DNA from: a virus
Strand: one strand, 5' to 3'
IMG/VR virus record: IMGVR_UViG_3300025132_000141
Span: 1-34,290 of that record
Length of the DNA: 34,290 bases
Part shown: positions 29,639-33,891 of the stretch, piece after piece
How the letters are laid out: every line of letters starts with the position of its first letter
Position numbering within the stretch: position 1 is the first letter of the stretch
Made by a program: the position numbers and the translations under genes
The notes under the pieces: generated by a model
Told to the model about the DNA's origin: nothing
The model's input: the letters and a program-made list of their open reading frames with translations, nothing else
The model's database searches: none

Positions 29639-30826
29639 TTGCTTTTTCAGGTTTTGGATCACAAGAAGGACTGTGTTGGTTATTTCGCCAACAATCACAT
29701 TCATGCTACTGGACTCGTACCCACCACGGGGATGACCTGGGAGTTATCGGACCACATGCATGGTGAAGCGTACGAGCTAGGGCGCATCTACAGCCACGGA
29801 GCGCCTCTTACAGACGTTTGTCCGGAAGATATGAAGGCAGACTGGGATCGTATCAAAAAAGCGCTCAGATCGTGCCTGAAAGCCTTTAGAACGGCTCGTC
29901 TCTCCCTCGATGAGAATTGTTTGTACGATGTAGTTCCCGAAACACTGCTTTACGAGTATCTCAACGCCAAAAACAAGATTACGGATCACGTTATTCAAAC
30001 GTATCCGCGGCCTAAGAATCATGATGCGATGTTAAACCTCAACAGGATGCTAATCGACGTTGGCTCTAGGCGCTTAAACATCAATATTGATCCCATCAAG
30101 CACTTATTAGGCTCGATTCAAGGACAGAACTTCCACAGAACCCTGCAAAACGTAACCCACACATGTCAATACAACCCGTGGGGAACAGTCACCGGACGCT
30201 TGGCGGCTCAGCCCAATACTTTTCCTATTTTGACGATGAATAAAGATTTCCGTTCCTGTGTTCACGCAGTCAACGATTACCTTGTAGAGCTAGACTTCAA
30301 TGCAGCCGAACTGAGAGTCCTGCTGGCGCTCTCCGGACAAGAGCAGCCGCAAAACGACATCCACGACTGGAATGTGAAGAACATCTTCGGCGGATCTGTA
30401 ACCCGGGATGAGGCGAAGGTGCAGACTTTCTCGTGGCTGTATTCCAGCAAGGATAACAAGGACTTAGGGCGCCTATATAACAAGGATTTTGTGCGAAATA
30501 AGTACTGGGATGGCTATAAAATTGAGACTGATTATGGTAGAATAATAGAAGATGTTGACGAGCACCGAGCACTTAACTATATCGTTCAAAGCACTACAAT
30601 TGACATGGTGCACGAACAGGCATACAAGGTTTACGAACTATTGAAAGGCAAGAAGAGTTATATTTCATTTCTGATTCACGATGCGGTCTATATTGATTTG
30701 GCCGATGAAGATCGCTATGATTTACTAAACCTGCTTGACACATTCAAGAAGACTCGATATGATATGTTCAAGGTTAATGTCTCCGCCGGACGCAATCTGG
30801 GAGAGATGAGAGAGTTAAAGCTATGA
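29639..30826 (+). CDS. short family-A DNA polymerase (polymerase domain only)
   Basis: A 395-residue protein starting at TTG 29639 after AGGAG. The Pol I/T7-type polymerase motifs are present in order: GTVTGRL (182-188); motif A LDFNAAELR (D219, E224, R226); motif B RDEAKVQTFSWLY (R256, K260, F264, Y268); the N-x3-Q segment LNYIVQST; and motif C LIHDAVYID (H347, D348, A349). Motif C has Ala where HDE has Glu. F264 is at the position of E. coli Phe762. There is no 3'-5' exonuclease domain and the fingers are very short. T4 and near relatives use a family-B enzyme; a family-A polymerase split from its exonuclease is known in the far T4 relative RM378. It could be the replicative polymerase with a separate exonuclease gene outside this window, or an accessory enzyme. 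It is coupled to the next gene by ATGA. Confidence 0.9.
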   Translation: MLFQVLDHKKDCVGYFANNHIHATGLVPTTGMTWELSDHMHGEAYELGRIYSHGAPLTDVCPEDMKADWDRIKKALRSCLKAFRTARLSLDENCLYDVVPETLLYEYLNAKNKITDHVIQTYPRPKNHDAMLNLNRMLIDVGSRRLNINIDPIKHLLGSIQGQNFHRTLQNVTHTCQYNPWGTVTGRLAAQPNTFPILTMNKDFRSCVHAVNDYLVELDFNAAELRVLLALSGQEQPQNDIHDWNVKNIFGGSVTRDEAKVQTFSWLYSSKDNKDLGRLYNKDFVRNKYWDGYKIETDYGRIIEDVDEHRALNYIVQSTTIDMVHEQAYKVYELLKGKKSYISFLIHDAVYIDLADEDRYDLLNLLDTFKKTRYDMFKVNVSAGRNLGEMRELKL

Positions 30827-31140
30827 AGAAGATGTACAACAAACTGGTGAGAGACAAGATCCCCCAGATCATCGAAGAGGCGGGCAAGAGTTGCATATGC
30901 CATACGGTCGAGGGCGACATCTTAAAGACCTATGCCAAGAAGAAGCTCCGCGAAGAGATCGAGGAATTCCTTGAAGATCCATGCCCCGAAGAGGCTGGCG
31001 ACGTGATGGAGATCTTCCATTTTCTCTGCGACCTCTATGATATCAAAGATTCACAGGTTATGGCGAGCAGCACAGCTAAGCGCGTAACGCGTGGCGGCTT
31101 CAATGAGGGTCTTGTCCTCAGCTGGGTGATCGAGAAGTGA
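30823..31140 (+). CDS. MazG-like NTP pyrophosphohydrolase
   Basis: This 105-residue protein starts KKMYNKLVRDKIPQIIEE, the signature opening of phosphoribosyl-ATP pyrophosphohydrolase/MazG-like all-alpha hydrolases. The metal-binding residues are in KLREEIEEF (about 43-51) and EEAGDVMEI (about 60-68), the EExxE and ExxD pattern. Members split nucleoside triphosphates to monophosphates, cleaning pools or lowering alarmones. It is coupled on both sides: ATGA with the polymerase and GTGA with the tubulin-like gene. A nucleotide-pool role next to a polymerase is a reasonable inference. Confidence 0.85.
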   Translation: MKKMYNKLVRDKIPQIIEEAGKSCICHTVEGDILKTYAKKKLREEIEEFLEDPCPEEAGDVMEIFHFLCDLYDIKDSQVMASSTAKRVTRGGFNEGLVLSWVIEK

Positions 31141-32003
31141 ACATAGTGGGACTAGGAAAAGCCGGTTGCAACATTGCGAAGACTTTCTCTAAGTATCCGC
31201 AGTATACAACCTATGGTATTGATACCCACGAGGACGCTACTATTACTATCCGGCGTAAAAAGAGCCACGAGGATTATGATGAAAACTTTCCCAATCTGCG
31301 CCGTAAGCTAAAGTTTGTTGGAGAAGACGTTACAGTTATTATTGCCGGCGCCGGAGAGATCTCCGGAGGTTCGCTAAGGCTGCTCGAACAGATCAGCCAA
31401 AACAATCTTACCGTAATCTATATTGAGGGTGATACGAGCTTGATGTCAGAGGTACAGAAGAAGCAAGAAAAAATTGTAAGTAATGTCTTGCAGGAATACG
31501 CTCGCTCTGGTATGATTGAAAGCGTGGTGATGATCAGCAACAGTGCCCTGGAGAAAAGCATCGGAGACATGCCGATTATTGGATACTACGATACACTCAA
31601 TCAGGCAGTGGTTAACACCATTCATATGATTAATGTTTTTAGGAACTCTGAGCCTGTTATTGGCAATTTCATCAAGCCTGCCGAGATTAGTCGCATCGCA
31701 ACGGTAGGGGTCGTCGACATCAGCGACGACGATGAGGCTGAGCACAAAGAAAAGTGGTTTTACCCCTTGACAGGCACCCGAGATGTGGTATACTACTATG
31801 GTATTAGTGAGAAGGATTTAAAGAACGACGGCACATTGTTTAGAAAAATCAATAACTTTGTGAAGTCGCGTATTGAAGACAATATTAACGTTTCGTACGG
31901 TGTTTTTAAGACCTCTTATGAGCAGAAATATTGTTATTGCATAAAGTACACATCTATGGTACAATCGTATGCAGAACTTTTAGACGATCAGGATATTAGC
32001 TGA
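31137..32003 (+). CDS. divergent tubulin/FtsZ-like GTPase
   Basis: This 288-residue protein has an FtsZ/tubulin layout. A glycine-rich first strand-loop (IVGLGKAGCNIAKTF, residues 3-17) corresponds to the FtsZ VGGGGGN region. A signature-like loop AGAGEISGGS (70-79) stands where FtsZ has GGGTGTG. MISNSALEK (132-140) aligns with FtsZ IPNDKLL, followed by YYDTLNQAVVNTIHMI like DAFGAANDVL. The segment expected to carry the catalytic T7-loop Asp reads VIGNFIKPAEIS, without an obvious NxD. So it may bind GTP but polymerise or hydrolyse differently. Phage tubulins such as PhuZ position DNA in infected cells; the role here is inferred. It starts at GTG 31137 overlapping the previous stop. Confidence 0.75.
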   Translation: MNIVGLGKAGCNIAKTFSKYPQYTTYGIDTHEDATITIRRKKSHEDYDENFPNLRRKLKFVGEDVTVIIAGAGEISGGSLRLLEQISQNNLTVIYIEGDTSLMSEVQKKQEKIVSNVLQEYARSGMIESVVMISNSALEKSIGDMPIIGYYDTLNQAVVNTIHMINVFRNSEPVIGNFIKPAEISRIATVGVVDISDDDEAEHKEKWFYPLTGTRDVVYYYGISEKDLKNDGTLFRKINNFVKSRIEDNINVSYGVFKTSYEQKYCYCIKYTSMVQSYAELLDDQDIS

Positions 32004-32031: not shown

Positions 32032-32805
32032 ATGGGTATTAACTTAGATAAGATGCGAGAGAAGCTCGCGTCCCTTAGAGGAGAGGGCAACTCCTCAGAT
32101 TCGGTTTTCTGGCGTCCCGAGGACGGTGAGCAGGATATCCGTATTGTCCCAACCCCCGATGGTGACCCCTTCAAGGAGATGTGGTTCCATTATAATGTAG
32201 AGAAGGGCGGATTCTTGTGTCCGAAGCGTAACTTCGGCGATGAGTGTCCTGTCTGTGACTTTGCATCCCAGCTGTGGCGAGAAGGTGTCGATAATAACGA
32301 TGACCATTCAAAGAAGACTGCAAAGAGCCTCTTCGTTCGGCAGCGATTCTTTAGCCCCGTGATGGTTCGTGGTGAGGAAGAGAAGGGCATTCGTGTTTGG
32401 GGTTATGGCAAGACAGCTTACGAGAACCTTTTGACGCTTGTGCTCAACCCCGAGTACGGCGATATTACTGACACTGAGGCAGGGACTGACCTTACAATGA
32501 CGTACGGCAAGCCCCCAGGAGCCTCATTCCCGCAGACGAAGCTGGTACCACGTCGACGATCTTCTCCTCTGTGTGCCGATATGACGCCTGACAAGTGCGC
32601 CGACTTGCTTGATAGTATTCCAGAGTTCTCTGGACTGTTTGACCGTAAGTCGACCGCGGATGTTCAGGCATCACTTGATACATTTGTCAACGGAATGGTC
32701 GAGGACCCGGAAGCGGTCAGCTCCGAGACCACCAAGTATGGCAAGAAGACCGAAGACGAGGGCAACGCTGTTGACCAGGCTTTCGCAGAGCTTGGCGCTC
32801 TCTAA
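32032..32805 (+). CDS. 32: single-stranded DNA-binding protein, T4 gp32-like
   Basis: A 257-residue protein. The N-terminal basic/helical start is followed by an OB-fold core with a built-in zinc site: H53, C63, C72 and C75 (CPKRNFGDECPVC), the same order as T4 H64/C77/C87/C90 with slightly shorter spacing. The LFVRQRFFSPVMV strand and YENLLTLVLNPEYGDITD segment also fit gp32. The C-terminus is acidic (EDEGNAVDQAFAELGAL), as expected for the partner-binding tail. It coats single-stranded DNA in replication and recombination. It has a strong AAAAGGAG site. It is the anchor for calling this end of the window a replication region. Confidence 0.93.
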   Translation: MGINLDKMREKLASLRGEGNSSDSVFWRPEDGEQDIRIVPTPDGDPFKEMWFHYNVEKGGFLCPKRNFGDECPVCDFASQLWREGVDNNDDHSKKTAKSLFVRQRFFSPVMVRGEEEKGIRVWGYGKTAYENLLTLVLNPEYGDITDTEAGTDLTMTYGKPPGASFPQTKLVPRRRSSPLCADMTPDKCADLLDSIPEFSGLFDRKSTADVQASLDTFVNGMVEDPEAVSSETTKYGKKTEDEGNAVDQAFAELGAL

Positions 32806-33127: not shown

Positions 33128-33667
33128 ATGAGTGATTTTATTACGAGGTTAAAGGAGCTGGGAGTTCAGGCGGACGATTGCCTAACCCTTAGTTATTCCG
33201 AGGGATGTGATGTTTGGCACATCAACGAGAGTCATGTGGAGGAGAGCGTAGCCGAGACCTCCACGGCAACCATGCTGGGTGCGCTCCTAGCTTCACCAGT
33301 GCCCGTCTATGGTGGCTGGGGCGGCGTCGAGCCAGGAAGCGATATCCTGAATGAGATGCGGGACAATGGCGAACTCGAAGAATATGATTATGAAGGTTGG
33401 TTTGAGGAGTATGTGACTGATCGACTCGTCGCGACCATCTACGATGGAGAATACTCGCTGGAGTATTCGACTGAGCAGTATGATTATAAGCGAGGTCGCT
33501 GTGATATTTCCACGGAAGTCCGAGTGCGCGCTGGAGATCTGTACAACGCCACTGAGATGGCTCAGAAGACGGACAACCTGCGATTTTTTGGCTTTACTGC
33601 CGACAAGTTTGTTAAGGGCTTCACGGTCTCAGTTGAGACCAAGAATGGCACTCTTACGCTAAACTAA
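33128..33667 (+). CDS. hypothetical acidic protein
   Basis: A 179-residue acidic protein. I chose ATG 33128 because it has GGGAG just upstream; a longer form from 33005 would run through the Hc1 gene and the leader hairpin. Features: MSDFITRLKELGVQADD start, a Gly/Pro-rich segment (LASPVPVYGGWGGVEPGSD), an aromatic/acidic stretch (EEYDYEGWFEEYVTD), and YDYKRGRCDISTEVRV, ending in beta strands (VSVETKNGTLTLN). Similar YDYKRG-containing proteins occur in marine T4-like phages as I recall, without known function. Its stop overlaps the next ATG by one base (TAATG). Confidence 0.75.
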   Translation: MSDFITRLKELGVQADDCLTLSYSEGCDVWHINESHVEESVAETSTATMLGALLASPVPVYGGWGGVEPGSDILNEMRDNGELEEYDYEGWFEEYVTDRLVATIYDGEYSLEYSTEQYDYKRGRCDISTEVRVRAGDLYNATEMAQKTDNLRFFGFTADKFVKGFTVSVETKNGTLTLN

Positions 33668-33891
33668 TGAAAACTCTCGATTTGCATGGTGAGAGGCACG
33701 AAGGAGTAATTCAAAGACTTCACAGCTTTGTGTACAACAATGAACTGCCTGTTCGTGTCATCACCGGCAAATCTGAGACAATGAGAAAAATAGTGGTTGA
33801 CACAGTGAGCCAACTAGGGTATTATACCCACTGTGAACGATTGATCAACGAAGGTTGCTTGATCATCACCGAACAACAATTCGTAATCTAG
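33667..33891 (+). CDS. minimal Smr-like domain protein
   Basis: This 74-residue protein begins KTLDLHGERHEGVIQRLHSF, the LDLHG motif that opens Smr domains. It continues VRVITGKSETMRKIVVDTVSQLGY, matching the second Smr motif (normally (H/T)GxG...L/M R..V...L). Smr domains bind nucleic acid and in some proteins nick DNA or cleave RNA. Here TGKS replaces the usual glycine-rich loop, and the domain stands alone, so nuclease activity is uncertain. It is coupled to the previous gene by TAATG. Confidence 0.75.
   Translation: MKTLDLHGERHEGVIQRLHSFVYNNELPVRVITGKSETMRKIVVDTVSQLGYYTHCERLINEGCLIITEQQFVI

Follow-up and report, generated by a model that had tools for sequence, protein, structure and literature searches.

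A divergent tubulin/FtsZ-like protein encoded among the replication genes of uncultured marine T4-superfamily phages

The tubL locus and its lineage

The window (the whole 34,290-base IMG/VR record that was analysed) contains a 288-aa open reading frame set between genes for a DNA polymerase and a single-strand DNA-binding protein. We call its product TubL, a working name for a previously unnamed family whose members are about 275-290 aa long. The genes at the locus are listed below, with the basis of each assignment in parentheses.

29639-30826, forward strand: PolA-like DNA polymerase of 395 aa, in which no exonuclease domain was detected (library matches)
30823-31140, forward strand: small protein with the pattern KLVRDKIP...EEAGDV, read as a MazG-like NTP pyrophosphatase (motif inference, no library match)
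31137-32003, forward strand: TubL, divergent tubulin/FtsZ-superfamily protein, GTG start (open reading frame, predicted fold, pN/pS)
32032-32805, forward strand: gp32-like single-strand DNA-binding protein (library matches)

The GTG start of tubL overlaps the stop codon of the gene before it, and relatives mostly have ATG at the same place. Followed outward in IMG/VR, the family extends to 164 distinct contigs, with identity down to about 31%. Ten pairs of relatives gave pN/pS values of 0.04-0.23, which point to strong purifying selection. Given these values and the number of contigs, the reading frame is not a chance one, and what was first noticed in the sequence alone is a genuine gene. One match, in G011 (L142) at 105266-106096, has a single TAG in frame, at or close to its end.

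No relatives were found in the 50,697 phage records of INPHARED (tblastn with five different family members), and no description of the family was found in the literature searched. None was found in genome_contigs either, and for this reason, together with the divergence of the sequence, we reject a recent host-derived copy of FtsZ. Profile searches with TubL gave nothing above 8 bits in Rhodothermus phage RM378, and found no TubL in the gp32 neighbourhoods of Mel-JY01, SPO1, LR756508 and Flavobacterium phage immuto. The last of these shares the order PolA-gp32-RecA-5'-3' exonuclease-DnaB with the lineage but has no TubL, and its PolA was confirmed.

The structural genes in the window are of the T4 superfamily (a gp21-type protease, a T4-type major head protein, tail sheath and tail tube). 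The lineage consists of uncultured marine T4-superfamily myophages with contigs of up to 204 kb, and a 'far-T4' placement is likely. Far-T4 phages are reported to be common in aquatic systems and to have few isolates, and tubulin or FtsZ is not mentioned in the main text of the two papers that we consulted on them (PMC4360716, PMC7198788).

A relative of 193,778 bases carries genes for RecA, a 5'-3' exonuclease, DnaB, RNR and a DnaE-type polymerase, all close to tubL, as well as IscA, GroES and GroEL, and these last three suggest a bacterial host. Its GroEL-type chaperonin is encoded at L201:7653-9224 (reverse strand; PF00118, 5.9e-63) and the GroES-like protein at L192:9643-9924 (reverse strand). 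A link between phage tubulin and HSP60 has been reported for jumbo phages (PMC7824862). Four Laminin_G_3 stretches occur in a 4,246-aa protein of this 193,778-base relative (L196:4551-17291, reverse strand). A cyanophage host was considered and set aside, since the psbA family was not found in 12 contigs, although this is weak evidence. Chimallin (phrog_4795) was not found in 12 large contigs, which are possibly incomplete; for three of these 12 the search was one in which phiKZ and RAY were both positive. We therefore reject a nucleus-forming phage, as chimallin was not detected and the positive control worked.

A PolA-like gene lies within 2 kb upstream of tubL in 118 of the 119 loci with enough sequence, and all 110 loci that could be tested downstream have gp32 within 2.5 kb. 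Because these first loci had been found through TubL, we also ran the converse search with gp32 as bait. Among the best 80 of 595 gp32 relatives, TubL was upstream in all 66 loci with at least 1 kb of upstream sequence. It was likewise present in all four loci fetched with the polymerase of L187, the deepest family member, and each of the 12 large contigs searched had a single copy. TubL is a core gene of this lineage. Its position in the replication operon suggests co-expression rather than physical association.

The MazG-like gene, optional in the lineage, adjoins tubL in 79 of the 119 loci testable upstream and was not detected beside it in L050, L056, L068 and L136, where the PolA and TubL genes are adjacent or overlapping. 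In the PolA-like protein of the window the apparent motif C reads HDAVYID, not HDE. This protein may be a second, reduced polymerase, as a relative also has a DnaE-type enzyme. Further along the window, a 74-aa Smr-like reading frame at 33667-33891 (PF01713, E 0.0078, below the cut-off) recurs downstream in some relatives with 68-93% identity.

Predicted fold and altered nucleotide loops

An AlphaFold2 model of TubL, built from a 41-member alignment, had a pLDDT of 88.4 and a pTM of 0.88. Its PDB matches in Foldseek were FtsZ, CetZ and TubZ, the best being FtsZ at E 7.6e-13. PhuZ was not among the PDB matches listed, which is not evidence against similarity. Structural alignment with VIA-align gave Z 24.0 for CetZ (259 residues, 3.0 A), 22.2 for TubZ and 22.1 for FtsZ. 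An independent model of L187 had a pLDDT of 93.0 and a Z of 24.2 with CetZ. The top rows for both models were all FtsZ, CetZ, TubZ or tubulin (Z about 21 to 24, Foldseek E about 1e-12). The best viral structure match was BFVD A0A6J5RW92 (E 1e-12, TMq 0.73), followed by other phage tubulins.

As modelled, TubL has a complete tubulin/FtsZ fold, with two domains and a central H7 helix. The original prediction was of a divergent phage tubulin/FtsZ-like protein with altered nucleotide loops, and named a plain Rossmann dehydrogenase fold beforehand as the outcome that would speak against it. Both models are tubulin-like rather than plain Rossmann and, together with a degenerate signature loop, they support that prediction. 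It is highly improbable that TubL is instead a Rossmann NAD-binding or TrkA-N protein. The sole Pfam signals of note were weak TrkA_N matches over residues 3-41, with the window protein below the curated cut-off. We reject this reading because it leans on the first 41 residues, against two models in which tubulin-fold matches run nearly full length and include the second domain.

Homology to the tubulin/FtsZ superfamily in profile-profile comparisons is weak but real. The 41-member alignment (A1) matched nine FtsZ sequences over residues 1-163 in hhalign (E 1.5e-4, probability 51%). The pairing set GLGKAGCNI on T1, ISNSALEK on IPNDKLLK and N155 on FtsZ N187, which bears out the FtsZ-like motif order that had been read from the sequence. 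The same alignment matched seven PhuZ sequences at E 9.5e-5. With a broader 61-member alignment the match to PhuZ had E 5e-5 and a score of 41.7, against at most 19.6 in 20 column shuffles, and that to FtsZ had E 0.023 and a score of 24.3, which exceeded the best shuffle (22.1) narrowly. Of the families tried, PhuZ gave the best match in these profile-profile comparisons.

Pfam and PHROG thresholds were missed. Pfam Tubulin reached E 0.09-0.1 in two members (0.091 in the best), and no Pfam-recognisable tubulin was present in 8 large contigs (PF00091 above its curated cut-off in 0 of 8, with 13 of 14 control genomes positive). The PhuZ profile, phrog_4733, had no match at E 0.1 in three members and none at E 1 in the window protein; its positive control, phiKZ gp39, gave E 4.6e-118. 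This profile rules out TubL as a member of the PhuZ family. The suggestion of a new tubulin branch is thus supported, in that TubL forms a deep family of its own.

The features within tubL are as follows.

31149-31175, forward strand: T1-like loop GLGKAGCNI, residues 5-13 (hhalign, 61-member alignment)
31221-31223, forward strand: T2-like Asp29 (FtsZ NTD motif), in 60 of 61 members (hhalign, alignment)
31344-31370, forward strand: T4/signature-equivalent loop AGAGEISGG, replacing GGGTGTG (hhalign, alignment)
31491-31511, forward strand: QEYARSG, residues 119-125, one of the best-conserved stretches (alignment)
31533-31556, forward strand: ISNSALEK, residues 133-140, equivalent to FtsZ IPNDKLLK (hhalign)
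31584-31643, forward strand: predicted helix H7, residues 150-169, with N155 (FtsZ N187 equivalent) and invariant H163 (model, alignment)
31644-31694, forward strand: T7/H8 region, residues 170-186, with no invariant acid and H8 not predicted (models, alignment)
31911-31940, forward strand: conserved C-domain segment TSYEQKYCYC, residues 259-268 (alignment)
31980-32003, forward strand: acidic C-terminal tail LDDQDIS and stop (alignment)

Among the 61 aligned members, G5 and G7 are invariant wherever these residues are present, G10 is found in all except the L187-type one, G73 in 59 and N155 in all. The signature AGAGEISGGS (residues 70-79) stands in place of GGGTGTG as originally quoted, and the family consensus, (A/C/G)G(S/A)GxISG, does not fit the pattern G-G-G-T-G-[ST]-G. 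The segment NQAVVNTI, residues 155-162, opens on the conserved Asn. The most conserved residues of the family are R123, S124, H163, Y219 and Y261. The tail LDDQDI(S/G) occurs only in the clade of the window and in L068-type clades, and is missing from deeper ones.

The claim that T7 lacks the catalytic Asp is correct for the window, and no acid is invariant across residues 170-186 in the 61 members. An acidic residue, Glu or Asp, occupies position 183 in 44 of 61; judging from spacing, this position is probably too far downstream to correspond to FtsZ D209/D212. The resemblance of PAEIS to FADVR had suggested E183 as the catalytic acid of T7, but we set this aside, since the spacing from N155 and from the following strand would place the equivalents nearer 174-180. 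Helix H8 was predicted in neither model; both its apparent absence and the mapping of T7 follow from predicted models and spacing.

The L187-type clade, which comprises four contigs (L205, L206, L208 and L187, the last also listed as L207), has lost most pocket residues and kept the gene and its position. T1 has become GIGxFC and T4 DGSE(P/A)ISG, and N155 is replaced, by position, in L205, L206 and L208. R123, S124, H163 and Y219 are retained, and the first two do not vary even in members without the nucleotide loops. The fold of L187 is intact by prediction despite the lost pocket. Judging from topology, R123, S124, H163 and Y219 would sit at a distance from the nucleotide end, within the lower part of domain one, helix H7 and domain two. 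The clade offers a natural test of nucleotide independence. In L187 a 122-aa Arg/Lys-rich reading frame, possibly DNA-binding, lies between TubL and gp32 (L187:8908-9276).

Possible roles of TubL

We lean, tentatively and at a little under even chances, towards TubL as a structural adaptor or scaffold in replication that has no need of canonical GTP hydrolysis. We favour this because of its residence in the replication operon, its status as a core gene, and the decay of its nucleotide machinery without loss of the gene. The fixed operon position, the single copy in all 12 large contigs and the clade with a decayed pocket point away from the stable filaments and the capping or decoy activity against host FtsZ that were first proposed. 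In this scenario, TubL would be made together with the polymerase and the single-strand DNA-binding protein, and would gather or position replication proteins or replicating DNA, perhaps as a short or static filament. Where nucleotide binding is retained, it may serve as a fold or assembly switch and not as a GTP-hydrolysis motor. Filaments of PhuZ D190A are non-dynamic yet need GTP to form (PMC4244570), which indicates that loss of hydrolysis does not prevent a tubulin from building static filaments. A precedent with a different fold is AlpC, a phage actin-like protein reportedly required for viral DNA to be replicated efficiently (PMC4446434).

A bolder version, to which we give roughly one-third weight, is that TubL is a pseudo-tubulin turned into an obligate part of the replisome or replication compartment, nucleotide-independent in one clade and kept throughout a widespread marine phage lineage. 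Such a role is not known to have been described for the superfamily.

Against the adaptor reading, GTP may matter in most members, because the pocket residues hardly vary except in one clade, and dynamic filaments may form. TubL could then be a cytomotive filament like PhuZ, whose nucleotide-driven dynamics position phage DNA or capsids. The shared fold, the profile-profile match to PhuZ, the near invariance of G5, G7, D29, G73 and N155 outside that clade and the PhuZ-like acidic C-terminal tail in the clade of the window all fit this. We nevertheless consider it rather unlikely, given that the T7 region has no invariant acid where seven aligned PhuZ sequences keep two Asp, that H8 is not predicted, that one clade has lost most of the pocket, and that chimallin was found neither in the three large relatives searched with two positive controls nor in the 12.

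FtsZ is present in most bacteria. An FtsZ-like protein with one altered end could cap, and TubL might join or cap host FtsZ protofilaments and so block division in the bacterial host that the GroEL, GroES and IscA genes of a relative suggest. Phage inhibitors of FtsZ are known, such as lambda Kil (PMC3961180). This role is unlikely in our judgement, since the gene keeps a constant place in the replication operon in nearly every lineage member examined. Moreover, a nucleotide-face cap should keep that face, whereas the residues that persist where it is lost are R123, S124, H163, Y219 and Y261.

The frequent presence of the MazG-like gene next to tubL (79 of 119 loci) raises the question of whether TubL is an enzyme or nucleotide sensor that uses a tubulin fold without filaments, for example to regulate dNTP supply jointly with the MazG-like protein. 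The mostly kept pocket and the invariant R, S, H and Y residues are consistent with such a role. The MazG-like gene is optional, however, and not found beside tubL in several clades, and no enzyme family was matched above threshold, so we regard this possibility as quite improbable.

The phage tubulins that have been studied well are those of nucleus-forming jumbo phages and of partition systems. TubL is instead a core gene of a widespread marine T4-superfamily lineage, next to replication genes and with no detectable chimallin. The natural decay of its GTP machinery with the gene kept makes it possible to ask whether a tubulin can work in replication when it does not hydrolyse GTP, and opens the question of how phages without a proteinaceous nucleus organise their replication.

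Comparison with known tubulin systems

TubL shares with PhuZ of the Chimalliviridae (phrog_4733) a phage tubulin fold, a profile-profile similarity (E 5e-5 to 9.5e-5) and, in part of the family, an acidic C-terminal tail. PhuZ is longer (about 315-330 aa versus about 275-290 aa). TubL differs in having no PHROG match, a different signature loop, no invariant T7 acids and no predicted H8. Its gene also lies between those for PolA and gp32, and chimallin was not found in its relatives.

With bacterial and archaeal FtsZ, TubL has in common the fold, the order of the T1, T2, T4, IPNDKLLK and H7 motifs and the Asn equivalent to N187. It has AGAGEISGG in place of GGGTGTG, does not conserve D209/D212 of T7, lacks a predicted H8 and the C-terminal linker of FtsZ, and is only 11-17% identical in structural alignments.

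The best viral structural match, BFVD A0A6J5RW92 (annotated 'FtsZ Cell division GTPase', from an uncultured Caudovirales phage), was compared by structure only; it is unlike TubL in its length of 452 aa, and its identity is 16%. The highest structural Z-scores were those of CetZ (24.0) and TubZ (22.2), despite identities to TubL of 12-18%. TubZ is part of plasmid and phage partition systems.
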